Shown piece after piece: positions 31,195 to 39,192 of a DNA stretch of 64,000 nt. Under the pieces are notes generated by a model. The model made no database searches and had not been told where the DNA came from. It saw only the letters and a program-made list of their open reading frames with translations. The translations under genes and the position numbers were made by a program. Source of the stretch: Thioalkalivibrio sp. ALJ16 (GTDB lineage: Bacteria > Pseudomonadota > Gammaproteobacteria > Ectothiorhodospirales > Ectothiorhodospiraceae); contig NZ_KB898046.1 in the NCBI RefSeq assembly GCF_000377345.1, forward strand, positions 1 to 64,000. The letters are read 5' to 3'. The first letter of the stretch is position 1, and every line of letters starts with the position of its first letter.

Positions 31195-31221
31195 GGCTTC
31201 GCGGGCAAGCCCGCTCCCACG
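31195..31221 (-). repeat. REP element
   Basis: GGCTTCGCGGGCAAGCCCGC then TCCCACG, near-consensus copy in inverse orientation. Confidence 0.8.
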
Positions 31222-31314
31222 AAGGGCGCTCGCCCATGGCTCTGCCTCCCCAGAGGTCGTTTGTACAGGGGCTTCTTCTACGGTGGTGCGGTGCTGGTAT
31301 CGCGCTCTGGCAGG

Positions 31315-31390
31315 GGCTTCGCGGGCAAGCCCGCTCCCACAAAGCCTGCTCCCACAAGGGCGGCTCCCACAAGGGCGGCTCCCGCAGGGG
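31315..31390 (-). repeat. REP element followed by three partial tail copies
   Basis: A consensus REP (31315-31341) is followed by three shortened units of the type GCYTGCTCCCACAAGG / GCGGCTCCCACAAGG spaced 15 nt apart, up to 31390. The partial units look like slipped duplications of the REP tail, adjacent to the 3' end of mgtE. Confidence 0.8.
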
Positions 31391-34543: not shown

Positions 34544-34610
34544 GTTCGCCTGCAAACAGGCTCCTGCAGGGGATTGTCCTGCCTTGCAGGAGCCTGCTTG
34601 CAGGCGAACC
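34544..34610. repeat. Inverted REP pair (CCTGCAGG variant)
   Basis: GTTCGCCTGCAAACAGGCTC then CTGCAGG (34544-34570) and its near complement (34582-34610) form a REP pair in head-to-head orientation, a BIME. The sequence is the A/T-substituted variant of the main REP (GGAGCCTGCTTGCAGGCGAA). It precedes the ABC transporter operon. Confidence 0.75.
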
Positions 34611-34661: not shown

Positions 34662-35375
34662 ATGGACGAGCAAGGCTCGGTGGCCGGCATGGTCCTGTCC
34701 ATGACGGATGTAGGGTTTGCCTACCCCGGCGAGGGGGAGGTGCTGCATGGCGTGGATCTCGAACTGGGCGCGGGCGAATGCGTGGCGATTGTCGGCGAGA
34801 GCGGCAGCGGCAAGTCCACGCTGCTGCATCTGGCCGCCGGGCTCGAGCCGGCGGACGCGGGCACGGTGCGCCTGGCCGGGCAGGCCCTGGCAGGGCTGGA
34901 CGAGGCGGCGCGCACGCGGCTGCGGCGCGCGCAGGTCGGCATCGTGTTCCAGTCGTTTCATCTGATCCCCACGCTCACGGCGCTGGAGAACGTGATGCTG
35001 CCGCTGGAGCTGGCGACGGATCTGGATGCCGCGCTGCGCCGCGAACGGGCCGCGGCGCAGCTGGCGGCCGTGGGCCTGGGGGACAAGGCCGGGCGCGAGC
35101 CGGAGCAGCTCTCCGGGGGCGAGCAGCAGCGCGTGGCGATCGCGCGGGCGCTGGTGCACCGGCCGACGCTGATCCTGGCGGACGAGCCGACCGGCAACCT
35201 CGACTCGCGCACCGGCGAGGAGGTGTTCGCGCTGTTGCTGGAGCAGGTGCGGGCGACCGGCTGTGCCCTGTTACTGGTTACGCACAGCGACGATCTGGCC
35301 GGGCGTCTGGACCGCGTGCTGCGCATGCAGGACGGCCATCTGCAGGATCGCGCCGCGGAGACCCCGGCGACGTGA
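34662..35375 (+). CDS. ABC transporter ATP-binding protein (LolD/MacB-like)
   Basis: 237 residues from ATG 34662; the upstream open frame runs through the REP pair and is excluded. Walker A GESGSGKST, Q-loop VFQSFHLIPTLTALENVMLP, signature LSGGEQQRVAIARAL, Walker B LILADEPTGNLDS, switch His in THSDD. The FQSFHLIPTLTA-ENV pattern is typical of the FtsX-type export group. It is coupled by a GTGA overlap to the permease gene. Confidence 0.92.
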   Translation: MDEQGSVAGMVLSMTDVGFAYPGEGEVLHGVDLELGAGECVAIVGESGSGKSTLLHLAAGLEPADAGTVRLAGQALAGLDEAARTRLRRAQVGIVFQSFHLIPTLTALENVMLPLELATDLDAALRRERAAAQLAAVGLGDKAGREPEQLSGGEQQRVAIARALVHRPTLILADEPTGNLDSRTGEEVFALLLEQVRATGCALLLVTHSDDLAGRLDRVLRMQDGHLQDRAAETPAT

Positions 35376-37912
35376 GCCTGCTGCTGGTAAAGGCCTGGCT
35401 GCGCGACTGGCGCAGGCGCCCCTTGCAGCGGCTGCTGACGCTGGTGGGTGTGGTGATCGCCGTGGCCGTGGTGCTGGCGGTGGACCTGGCCAACCAGTCG
35501 GCGCAGCGCGCGTTCGACCGTTCGATGGACGAGGTGGCGGGAACGGCGACCCACCAGGTCCTGGGGCCGGCCCGGGGTTTCGACGAGGTACATTACCGGG
35601 ATCTGCGCCTGGCCGGCTGGCGCGATAGCGCGCCGATCGTGGAGGGGCCCGCGCGGCTGCCGGACGGGCGCACGATCTATGTGCTGGGGGTCGATCCGCT
35701 GGCCGAGGGCCCGTTCCGCGGGGCGGCCTCGGATATCGGGGATGCCCCGGTGCAGCGGCTCGTTACCGAGCCGGGCACGATCCTGCCGCCGAGTGGCTGG
35801 TGGGCGGGTTCCGGGATGGCCCACGAGGACCGCCTTGCGCTCGAGACTGCTGCCGGGCGCTTCGAGGTCACACTGCTCGACCGCGCGGCGGAGCGTGACG
35901 AACCGGCGGCCGAGTCAGACGACGAGGGTGGCTCGCTGTGGGTCACGGATATCGCCACCGCACAGACGTTGCTCGGCCGGCCGGGGCGGCTCGATCGTAT
36001 CGACGTGCGCCTCGATGAGGCTGACATCGACGCCTTCGCGGAGCGGTTGCCGGATGGGCTGGAACTCGTGCCAGTGGCGGCGCGCGACCAGGCCTCGCGC
36101 GAGCTGGCGCAGGCCTTCCGCATCAACCTGACGGCGATGAGCCTGCTGGCGCTGCTGATTGCCGCCTTCCTGATCTACAACACCCAGACCTTTGCGGTGC
36201 TGCGCCGACGCGAGGTGCTGGCGAGCCTGCGCCTGGTGGGGGCCGGTCGGCGGGCGCTGTTCGGCGTGGTGATGCTGGAGGCCTTGCTGGTCGGTGTGAT
36301 CGGCACGCTGCTGGGGGTGCTGGTCGGGATGGGTCTTGCGCAGGTGCTGGTCGGCCAGGTCGCGCAGACGGTGACGGATCATTTCTTTGTGGTGGCGGTA
36401 ACGGAGGTGACGCCGCGTCCGCTGGCGCTGCTGGCGGTGATCGCGCTGGGGGTAGGGCTGTCGCTGCTGGCGGCGCTCGCCCCGGCCTGGGAGGCGGCAC
36501 GGGCGGCCAGCCCAGGCAGCCTCGGCCGCGGGCGGCTGGAGCGGCGGGCGCGCCGGGGTCTGCGCGGTCTGGCCGTGGCGGCGGTCGTGCTGCTGGCGGC
36601 GGGTGGTGTGATATTGCTGCTCGGGATCGGGGGGCTGGTGGGCAGCTTTGTCGCGCTGTTTCTGCTGATTACCGGCTTTGTGCTGCTGATCCCGCTGGTG
36701 CTGGCCGGGGTGCTGAGCGGTCTGGCACGGCTGGGTCGCGGTCAGACGTTGCCGCGCATCGGGGTGCGCAGTCTGGAGCGGAGCCTGTCGCGCAGCGCGC
36801 CGGCCACCTCGGCGCTGACGCTGGCCCTGGCGGCCGCGATCAGCGTGTCGGTGATGGTCGGGAGTTTTCGCGACAGCGTGGAGCAGTGGCTGGGGCAGGC
36901 GCTTACCTCGGATGTGTACGTGGTGCCGGTGGCGCCCGCCGCGGCGCGTAACGGGGCGCGCCTGCCCGCGGACTGGGGGGAGCCGCTCGCCCGCATCGCC
37001 GAGGCGGAGTCGGTCAGCACCGGCTCCAGCCAGGACACACCGAGCGATGCCGGGATGATCGATCTCTTTGTCGTCGAGCCGCACCCGGTCTGGCTGGACT
37101 ACCTGCCGCTGTTGCGGGCCGAGACCACGGGCGCGGCACTCGACCAGCGCCTGCGCGAGCGTGATGCGGTGCTGGTCACCGAGCCCTTTGCGGCCCATCA
37201 CGACGTGGGTGTGGGCGATCGCCTGGAGATCCGCGTGGACGACGGTCGGCGGATGTTCGAGGTGGCGGGCGTGTATCGCGACTACGGCAGCCCGCAGGGC
37301 ACCGTGCTGATGCTGGGCGAGCGGTTCTACGCGGGCACGGCCGGTGCCGAGGAGGTGGGATCGTTTGGGCTGCGTCTGCCCGACGGCGCGGATGCCGCCG
37401 TGGTGATCGAGCGCCTGGAGGCGTGGCTGGCCGAGCGCGAGACGGCGGCCATGGTTACGCGGCCCGGCGATATAGAGCAGGAGTCGATGGCGATTTTCGA
37501 CCGCACCTTTGCGATCACGCACCTGCTGCGGGTGATCACACTGCTGGTCGCGTTCATCGCGATCCTCGGGGCGCTGATGGCGCTGCAGATGGAGCGCGCG
37601 CGCGAGTTCGCCACGCTGCGCAGCCTGGGTCTGCTGCCCGGCGGGGTGCGCGGGCTGGTGGTGTTTCAGGGCGCGGTGCTGGGGGGCTTTGCCGCGCTGG
37701 CCGCGATCCCGCTGGGGCTGGGCATGGGCTGGCTGCTGATCGAGGTGATCAACCGCGAGGCCTTCGGCTGGGGCATGGACCTGCGCTGGCCAGTCCGCGA
37801 GATCGGCGAGACCGTCGCCCTGGGCATGGGGGCTGCGCTGCTGGCGGCGCTGATCCCGGCCTGGCGCATGGCACGCATGCGGTTGGTGCCGGCGTTGCGG
37901 GAGGTGCCGTGA
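35372..37912 (+). CDS. FtsX-family ABC transporter permease
   Basis: 846 residues from a GTG overlapping the ATPase stop. An N-terminal helix (LLTLVGVVIAVAVVLAVDLA) and a large periplasmic domain are followed by FtsX modules (about 250-370 and 720-840), with extra central helices, so there are two FtsX cores as in other long permeases. With the lipoprotein encoded next, this makes a three-gene unit of the kind found beside AttH/CrtC-like lipoproteins. A mechanotransmission or lipid/lipoprotein transfer role is inferred; the substrate is unknown. Confidence 0.87.
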   Translation: MSLLLVKAWLRDWRRRPLQRLLTLVGVVIAVAVVLAVDLANQSAQRAFDRSMDEVAGTATHQVLGPARGFDEVHYRDLRLAGWRDSAPIVEGPARLPDGRTIYVLGVDPLAEGPFRGAASDIGDAPVQRLVTEPGTILPPSGWWAGSGMAHEDRLALETAAGRFEVTLLDRAAERDEPAAESDDEGGSLWVTDIATAQTLLGRPGRLDRIDVRLDEADIDAFAERLPDGLELVPVAARDQASRELAQAFRINLTAMSLLALLIAAFLIYNTQTFAVLRRREVLASLRLVGAGRRALFGVVMLEALLVGVIGTLLGVLVGMGLAQVLVGQVAQTVTDHFFVVAVTEVTPRPLALLAVIALGVGLSLLAALAPAWEAARAASPGSLGRGRLERRARRGLRGLAVAAVVLLAAGGVILLLGIGGLVGSFVALFLLITGFVLLIPLVLAGVLSGLARLGRGQTLPRIGVRSLERSLSRSAPATSALTLALAAAISVSVMVGSFRDSVEQWLGQALTSDVYVVPVAPAAARNGARLPADWGEPLARIAEAESVSTGSSQDTPSDAGMIDLFVVEPHPVWLDYLPLLRAETTGAALDQRLRERDAVLVTEPFAAHHDVGVGDRLEIRVDDGRRMFEVAGVYRDYGSPQGTVLMLGERFYAGTAGAEEVGSFGLRLPDGADAAVVIERLEAWLAERETAAMVTRPGDIEQESMAIFDRTFAITHLLRVITLLVAFIAILGALMALQMERAREFATLRSLGLLPGGVRGLVVFQGAVLGGFAALAAIPLGLGMGWLLIEVINREAFGWGMDLRWPVREIGETVALGMGAALLAALIPAWRMARMRLVPALREVP

Positions 37913-39192
37913 TGGAGCGGTTGATGCATGTGGGAGCGGGCTTGCCCGCGAAAGGATCTTGCCAGAGCCCGACGCGGGCAGGGGCTTCGCGGGCGAGCCC
38001 GCTCCCACAGGTGCTCCTGGAGATGTTTCCTCATAAGATTTTGCGCCTGTTGGTGCTGGTTGGGCTCGTGGTGCTGCTGGCGGCCTGTGGCGGGGCGGAG
38101 CCGCCGGATGCGCGCGAGGCCGAGGTGTCCGGCCTGCGCGTGGGCGAGGCCCTGGGCGGGGAGGAGACGGACGGGTTCCGCCGCGCCGATGCGCCGCGGG
38201 AATTCGAGTTTCCGCGTGATCACGGGCCGCATCCGGGGTTTCGTAACGAGTGGTGGTATGTGACCGGCAATCTCGACGGGCCGGAGGGCGAGCGGCTGGG
38301 CTTTCACATCACCTTCTTCCGCGTCGGGCTCGCACCGGAGCTTTCGGGGGATGCCCGCTGGCACGAATCGGCCTGGGCCAGCCCGGATATCTGGATGGCG
38401 CATACGGCGGTGGTCGATCGCGAGGCCGGGCACCACGCCTCCGAGGAGCGCTTCGTGCGCGACGGGGCGGGGCTGGCGGGTGCGTCCGATCCGGTCGGTC
38501 GGGTCTGGGCCGAGGACTGGCAGCTCGCGCATCTGGACCGGGACCGCTGGACGCTGGACTTCAGCGTGGACGACTACCGGCTGGCGCTGGAACTGGAGCC
38601 CCTGCGCGGCCCGGTCCTCCAGGGCGAGGCGGGGCTCAGCCAGAAGGGTCCGGAACCGGGCAATGCCTCCTACTACTACTCCATGCCACGCATCGCGGTG
38701 CGCGGGGAGGTCGAGCGCGCGCAGCACGGGCGCCTGGCGGTAACGGGTCAGGCCTGGATGGACCGCGAGTGGAGCACCAGTGCGCTGTCCGAGGATCAGG
38801 TGGGCTGGGACTGGTTCGCGCTGCAGTTCGCCGACGGGCTGGACGTGATGTACTACCAGCTGCGCAAGGCGGACGGGCAGCCACACCCGCTATCCAAGGG
38901 CCGCTGGATGCCGGCGGACGCCGACGACCGGCTGCTGGAGCCCGCGCAGGTCGAACTGGAGCCCCGGCGCTGGGCCACGCAGCCCTCCGGCAACCGCTAT
39001 CCGGTGGAGTGGGCCATGCTTATCGCGCCGCCGGACGGCTCGGCGTCACGCGAATTCACCGTGCGCGCGATCCGCGACGAACAGGAGATGGACACCGTGA
39101 TCCGCTATTGGGAGGGCGCCGTGGATATCCTCGACCCGGACGGCGAGGCTATCGGGCGAGGCTTTGTGGAACTGACGGGGTACGACGACTAG
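37912..39192 (+). CDS. Lipoprotein with AttH/CrtC-like (lipocalin_9) domain
   Basis: 426 residues from the ATG at 37912, which overlaps the permease stop (TGATG) and has GGGAGG at perfect spacing. Residues about 6-33 are read from an inserted REP pair. The signal core LVLVGLVVLLAACGG follows with lipobox Cys59. The mature part shows HPGFRNEWWYVTGNL, a CrtC/AttH signature, and two lipocalin-like halves. If translation instead began at 38011 or 38023 a normal signal peptide would result, but neither has a ribosome-binding site. Probably works with the ABC-permease pair at the outer membrane. Confidence 0.85.
   Translation: MERLMHVGAGLPAKGSCQSPTRAGASRASPLPQVLLEMFPHKILRLLVLVGLVVLLAACGGAEPPDAREAEVSGLRVGEALGGEETDGFRRADAPREFEFPRDHGPHPGFRNEWWYVTGNLDGPEGERLGFHITFFRVGLAPELSGDARWHESAWASPDIWMAHTAVVDREAGHHASEERFVRDGAGLAGASDPVGRVWAEDWQLAHLDRDRWTLDFSVDDYRLALELEPLRGPVLQGEAGLSQKGPEPGNASYYYSMPRIAVRGEVERAQHGRLAVTGQAWMDREWSTSALSEDQVGWDWFALQFADGLDVMYYQLRKADGQPHPLSKGRWMPADADDRLLEPAQVELEPRRWATQPSGNRYPVEWAMLIAPPDGSASREFTVRAIRDEQEMDTVIRYWEGAVDILDPDGEAIGRGFVELTGYDD
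37929..38010. repeat. Inverted REP pair (BIME) inside a coding region
   Basis: TGTGGGAGCGGGCTTGCCCG then CGAA (37929-37953) and its inverse, ending CCCGCTCCCACAG (37979-38010), face each other. The pair is 84 nt with its frame, a multiple of three, and lies between the Shine-Dalgarno/ATG at 37912 and the lipoprotein signal core. Confidence 0.85.

Follow-up and report, generated by a model that had tools for sequence, protein, structure and literature searches.

Repetitive extragenic palindromes (REPs) arranged as inverted doublets (REPINs) and the REP-associated tyrosine transposases (RAYTs) were defined by Bertels and Rainey 2011 (PMC3116915) and Nunvar 2010 (PMC2817692), and REPs of the GTAG-1 class are reported from Thioalkalivibrio K90mix (PMC3733652). 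Here we describe a doublet of this kind in the first 64,000 nucleotides (nt) of contig NZ_KB898046.1 of Thioalkalivibrio sp. ALJ16 (assembly GCF_000377345.1; we refer to this whole stretch as the window), where it lies in frame between the start codon of a predicted lipoprotein and the lipobox, and has probably been inherited as a translated part of the leader. The element resembles the described REPIN/RAYT systems in that the doublet is inverted, its motif is the same as that of the P. putida REP TGTGGGAGCGGGCnTGCCCGCGAA (table in Nunvar, PMC2817692), and the RAYT gene of the genome is flanked by the same repeats. It differs from them in location, as known doublets are mostly extragenic and this one sits in frame inside a gene.

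A preliminary description of this DNA held that REPs normally avoid coding sequence, which is broadly right, with known exceptions. Di Nocera 2013 (PMC3733652) documents REP dimers read in frame in open reading frames (ORFs), typically 20-30 residues long, among them a Thioalkalivibrio uvrA with two dimers, and the locus studied here is alike in being a REP dimer in frame in an ORF. The same paper considers that many amino-terminal REPs may be extragenic, translation perhaps starting downstream; in contrast to those suspected start errors, a comparison of 12 species argues for translation here. A term search of its main text, with the supplement outside its scope, returned no mention of a lipoprotein. 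Rickettsia palindromic elements (RPEs; Ogata 2000, 2002) are also read in frame in functional proteins (as related in PMC2229807 and the review PMC10969869), but they are unrelated elements and usually reside within conserved enzymes, whereas our REPIN stands in a leader. In Yersinia, the YPAL/RU-2 element is part of the predicted signal peptide of YPO1552 (Delihas 2007, PMC2229807) and is comparable as a mobile repeat contributing to a signal peptide; there, however, a hydrophobic miniature inverted-repeat transposable element forms part of a putative new protein, whereas here a REPIN would serve as the n-region of a conserved lipoprotein. Our literature search turned up no publication that places a REP or REPIN in the leader of a lipoprotein, which is weak evidence of absence given that supplements and subscription papers lay outside its scope. 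In-frame REPs are already published, and what this locus appears to add is the case of a translated amino-terminal REPIN in a lipoprotein leader.

Results

A REPIN in frame between start codon and lipobox

The lipoprotein gene (37912-39192; like the permease ORF and the parts of this locus given with coordinates in this section, on the + strand) opens with an ATG (37912-37914) that overlaps the stop codon of the preceding permease gene (37910-37912) as TGATG. Ahead of it stands the Shine-Dalgarno (SD) sequence GGAGGT (37900-37905), with a computed anti-SD pairing of -14.0 kcal/mol. The 5′ arm of the REPIN begins 18 nt after the A of this ATG, occupies 37929-37952 and is read V-G-A-G-L-P-A-K; the 33-nt spacer (37953-37985) and the 3′ arm (37986-38009, read S-R-A-S-P-L-P) continue in the same frame. 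The arms are inverted, 24 nt each and 96% complementary. They are followed by AGGTG, a weak SD-like motif (38009-38013), by an internal ATG (38023-38025), by the signal-peptide hydrophobic core LLVLVGLVVLLAA (38047-38085), which is uncharged as judged from translation and charge count, and by the lipobox Cys (codon 59, 38086-38088), recognised by pattern. From 37912 the frame runs uninterrupted to a stop codon whose last base is 39192, with 58 codons ahead of the Cys. The inverted REP pair between start and signal, its stop-free reading and the 58-residue leader put forward in the preliminary description are all borne out, the arms being backed by motif matches and shuffle controls; the length of the block, given there as 84 nt and about 28 residues, is 81 nt and 27 codons when measured.

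Frame keeping among orthologues

We found a protein match in 26 of 30 genomes of the same genus, that of ALJ16 included, and studied the leader in 17 of them, those reaching 60% identity or more. In 12 genomes (ALJ16 itself, ALJ7, ALJ21, ALJ3, G025, ARh2, ALE31, ALJT, AL2, AKL19, ALMg11 and ALE14) the REPIN is uninterrupted and in frame between TGATG and the lipobox, and the TGATG of all 12 sits in the same permease-end context at the DNA level. The thirteenth case, G029, has kept the ATG and the REPIN (C1:1805047-1805119), directly behind which lies an insertion sequence (IS) of the IS110 family, with its transposase gene on the minus strand (L154:5367-6356; PF01548, PF02371); the lipoprotein frame runs out of the IS end, and the leader is replaced by IS-end sequence. 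Certain IS are known to target REPs (PMC8450116).

The 13 carriers form one clade (support 100/99). No REP motif was found near the start in ALJ24, HL17, G012 and B1Sed10, all four of which branch outside this clade, and the number of REPINs found genome-wide by pattern is 0, 2, 0 and 0 in these, compared with 2 to 27 in the 13. The simplest history would thus be one insertion in the common ancestor of the 13. Orthologues with the same long N-terminus, which the preliminary description had named as grounds for rejecting its reading, do exist; because they carry the same inherited REPIN, their length supports inheritance and does not amount to a refutation.

Among the 12 uninterrupted leaders there are 10 different lengths, the shortest being 45 and the longest 68 codons, and each is in frame with its TGATG. 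The offset from the ATG to the REPIN is 18, 30, 33, 48 or 54 nt, and the 3′ arm of ALMg11 has 12 extra bases. By a parsimony count, the stretch from the start codon to the end of the REPIN has changed in length at least five times, each time by a multiple of three, and the chance of this for five free length changes is (1/3)^5 = 0.004.

Starts behind the REPIN

As possible starts behind the REPIN we tabulated all in-frame ATG, GTG and TTG codons of the same 12 orthologues, rare starts such as CTG not being included. In eight of them (G025, ARh2, ALE31, ALJT, AL2, AKL19, ALMg11 and ALE14) the leaders that these starts would give do not exceed 13 residues and contain no basic one, and in ALJT, AL2, AKL19 and ALMg11 there is no basic residue at all behind the REPIN. 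From what is established about signal peptides, we judge that a leader of 13 residues or fewer that lacks a basic residue would not be a working lipoprotein signal. As no workable start is found behind the REPIN in these eight, translation should begin there before the REPIN or inside it, and the comparison supports the view that, taken over the clade, translation passes through the element.

Turnover of the element

In ALJ7, ALJ21, ALJ3, G025 and ARh2 the spacer is the reverse complement of that found in the others: once inverted, it agrees with the ALJ16 spacer at 26-30 of 33 positions, as opposed to 4-5 in direct orientation, shuffled sequences giving about 10 on average and 20 at most. A second arm subtype is present in both arms of ALJT, ALE14 and G029, and only in the 3′ arm of ALE31. 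Judged from these comparisons, the element is continuing to change as REPs do, its spacer being inverted and its arms exchanged with the frame kept throughout; gene conversion and re-insertion are both possible routes. Within the inverted group, six pairs have 0 differences in 46 arm bases. In the other orientation, spacer differences lean to third codon positions, with few changes to count. We read this pattern as a frame that is kept, a peptide that is mostly free and arms that are conserved as REPs.

The repeat family and its transposase

In the window the REP motif is matched 8 times when up to three mismatches are allowed (mean of 100 shuffles, 0.00), and the genome has 43 matches (reversed pattern, 0), so that its presence at the locus is not due to chance. 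A degenerate version of the motif gives 73 zero-mismatch matches in 49 groups in the genome of ALJ16, and the stems fall into several subtypes that stay self-complementary through compensating changes. Folding of the RNA from 37925 to 38014 yields -68.6 kcal/mol (z -8.34), and none of 200 shuffles is as stable. With inverted arms, a short spacer, a hairpin and a dispersed family, the element is a REPIN, that is, a GTAG-type REP doublet. The extragenic location usual for REPINs is not what we find, the pair being in frame between start and lipobox; we nevertheless file it as a REPIN by its sequence, because PMC3733652 documents such exceptions.

The same genome holds a RAYT gene (C6:105076-105477; 141.5 bits, cut-off 80) flanked by REP pairs of the family (C6:104930-105006 and C6:105525-105595). 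A RAYT-family gene also lies directly downstream of the lipoprotein gene in four relatives (G002:C9:84302, G005:C5:412-849, G009:C3:2875 and G011:C10:23028), and the G011 copy looks broken. As the likely source of the REPIN this neighbour was rejected: the repeats around it are of the GATGCGATTCGC type and no GTAG motif is adjacent. The RAYT at C6:105076 fits this role better.

We also surveyed the genome for coding REPs with a crude codon score, which is not equivalent to a proper gene call. In its strict form, 0 of 49 REP groups are bordered left and right by coding sequence sharing a single open frame; the focal REPIN fails as well, its left flank being the permease in another frame. The looser form retains 19 groups, among which, by eye, only the focal one combines an overlapping-gene ATG, a strong SD and a clear gene body. 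Other groups (for example C5:43599, C5:94744, C2:263440 and C30:4850) open into a downstream gene that apparently starts later.

The surrounding genes

The genome of ALJ16 measures 2.755 Mb, and its best-named relatives are Thioalkalivibrio, with 94% identity for ALJ21, ALJ3 and ALJ7. The permease is of the FtsX/MacB type (PF02687, 4.1e-29; PF12704, 5.1e-11). Its ORF (34778-37912) is a mechanical one, and the true start is probably further inside. The lipoprotein carries a CrtC N-terminal lipocalin domain (PF07143, 6.4e-57, 193.3 bits) and Lipocalin_9 (PF17186, 4.9e-37, 127.4 bits), both above the curated cut-offs; an NCBIfam profile search returned 0 families. In all 12 leaders, by pattern and charge count, the lipobox Cys comes after a hydrophobic stretch that is preceded by basic residues, and the protein is accordingly a predicted bacterial lipoprotein and signal peptidase II substrate. 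In the mature part, after the Cys, differences between close relatives fall mostly on third codon positions (37 of 52 between ALJ7 and ARh2, for instance), an excess which indicates that the gene is under selection and maintained.

Two further sets of REPs are found in the window. One is a second pair, in the opposite arrangement, at 34545-34608, just before the ATPase gene that opens the same ATP-binding cassette (ABC) operon; the other, at 31198-31340, consists of two copies of one REP that point the same way and are 120 nt apart.

Another repeat at the same junction

T. sulfidiphilus ALJ17 (G031) and G034 belong to another genus-level group, outside the REPIN clade. Their permease-lipoprotein junction is occupied by a different inverted-repeat structure, in which AAGTGGC heptads surround a palindrome of the CCCTCTCCC type. 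Both components are dispersed in these genomes, with 30 (G031) and 13 (G034) matches for the palindrome and 186 and 113 overlapping matches for the heptads, respectively; reversed controls gave 0 in each case. The repeat is in frame from the ATG overlapping the permease stop, with 64 and 60 codons to the Cys, and GTG codons inside it are further possible starts. Whichever start is used, much of the hydrophobic core comes from the 3′ arm of the repeat. Part of this core, LLATCHLLLAT, is encoded by CTTGCCA heptads in G031 (L027) and G034 (L028), either genome having more than 100 matches to this repeat. In T. denitrificans (G036) the contig ends ahead of the junction.

Discussion

We consider it probable, from comparison of these sequences, that the REPIN has been inherited as a translated part of the lipoprotein leader, and that in the species of the window the upstream start is the likelier one. 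The comparison shows an inherited insertion, a frame that is kept through several changes of length and, in two thirds of the uninterrupted species, no workable start behind the REPIN. Several observations weigh against this reading. ALJ16, ALJ7, ALJ21 and ALJ3 have an ATG, equivalent to 38023, from which the leader would be 21 residues long and contain two basic ones; in ALJ7 and ALJ21 the SD pairing of this ATG (-7.7 kcal/mol) is a little stronger than at the upstream start (-7.2), and the upstream SD of ALJT is weak (-5.3). The contrast in spacer length, 33 nt at 13 of 13 focal sites versus 8 of 73 other REPINs, most of which have 31 or 32 (hand count from lists for G000, G005, G022, G024 and G029), speaks for the reading but is inflated by shared ancestry, related genomes not being independent. 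The focal frame is open in every one of the 38 oriented REPINs of the genome (19 pairs); stop-free reading is a built-in property of the element, and we discarded it as evidence of coding. The leaders lacking a REPIN measure 21 (ALJ24), 26 (HL17), 45 (G012) and 32 (B1Sed10) codons, and that of G012 reaches its length from an overlapping ATG without any REP, so length alone is not due to the REPIN. Finally, spacers of the inverted group have no excess of third-position differences (1, 2 and 1 at positions 1, 2 and 3 between ALJ7 and ARh2), and the amino-acid sequence of the REPIN segment looks largely unconstrained.

For the gene of the window, the choice of start deserves separate consideration. 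The internal ATG at 38023 has AGGTG 9 nt upstream and GGAG abutting it, and would leave the 13-residue uncharged core intact. Anti-SD pairing is stronger at the upstream start, both in ALJ16 (-14.0 versus -7.7 kcal/mol) and in ALJ3 (-14.0 versus -0.7, which is almost no pairing at the internal ATG), and the upstream frame is kept in all four species that have this ATG (offsets 18, 48, 48 and 33). The upstream start at 37912 is the likelier one for this gene, and some initiation at 38023 is possible in its species. As to the preliminary description, its view of 37912 as the only well-placed SD and start holds with regard to GGAGGT, TGATG and the pairing of -14.0, and gives way on exclusivity, 38023 having a weak SD of its own. 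The fork it proposed, between a long leader and a later start, comes down on the side of the long leader for the clade (in frame in 12 of 12, no later start in 8 of 12); in ALJ16 the later start is the less likely of the two, and it is not, as had been stated, without a ribosome-binding site.

If the REPIN is indeed translated, the following course of events would account for the locus. A GTAG-type REPIN, a non-autonomous element presumably moved by a RAYT transposase, would have inserted about six codons behind the lipoprotein start in the common ancestor of the 13 sampled Thioalkalivibrio genomes. The overlap of start and stop with the permease would have left no intergenic gap to absorb the insertion, and the element, stop-free in this frame by happenstance, would have placed some 27 leader codons between the original start and the hydrophobic core. 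The ribosome would finish the permease, begin at TGATG and melt the hairpin; the 27 residues would act as a long n-region, which in some species supplies the only basic residues close by, and signal peptidase II would remove the leader.

Whether the REPIN does anything in the leader is a separate matter. It might well be a neutral passenger, tolerated and put to no use, although we would not quite expect it: the spacer peptide has no visible constraint, the spacer is inverted in 5 of the 12, and G029 has lost its leader to an IS end, whereas the four leaders with no basic residue behind the REPIN suggest that the signal may depend there on REP-encoded arginines. We find it unlikely that the element is kept mainly as an RNA hairpin that tunes stability or coupling at the permease-lipoprotein junction, translation being the price of a gapless junction. 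The fold is very stable, the arms are unchanged between the compared members of the inverted group, and in 12 of 12 the 5′ arm stands at least 18 nt behind the A of the start codon, which is beyond the region thought to be covered by the starting ribosome. PMC3733652 cites known roles for REPs in the stability of mRNA. On the other hand, the arms of ALE31 are of different subtypes, so that its long stem is broken in the core, G029 has an IS between REPIN and gene, and other REPINs are equally stable without coding, the identity of the arms possibly reflecting REP turnover alone. Translation of the ALJ16 gene from 38023, with the REPIN lying as non-coding DNA after the permease stop and ahead of a shortened lipoprotein gene, is improbable (in P. 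putida, C. koseri and S. maltophilia the majority of amino-terminal REPs may be non-coding in this way, PMC3733652), the same reading being impossible in 8 of the 12 orthologues.

A bolder version of the translated leader can be formulated, in which the REPIN, while still live, has turned into a coding segment that the lipoprotein export signal cannot do without. REP-like turnover, with arms changing subtype singly, spacers inverting and half-units being duplicated, would go on with only frame-keeping changes surviving, the arginines would serve the signal in some species, the hairpin would gate coupled translation, and the junction would be a recurrent trap for palindromes, into which the T. 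sulfidiphilus group would have fallen independently. We regard this combination as rather doubtful.

Amino-terminal REPs are usually blamed on wrong start calls, and comparison across species offers a way to tell. In this case it points to real coding, since through 13 related genomes the palindrome has been inverted, converted and lengthened with the frame held. Automatic start calls at such junctions may be wrong in both directions. In these soda-lake sulfur bacteria, a kind of repeat that normally lies between genes is found within the start of a lipoprotein gene. The series makes it testable whether a selfish repeat can turn into something that a protein export signal requires, and whether REPINs that are translated go on evolving in the manner of REPs.

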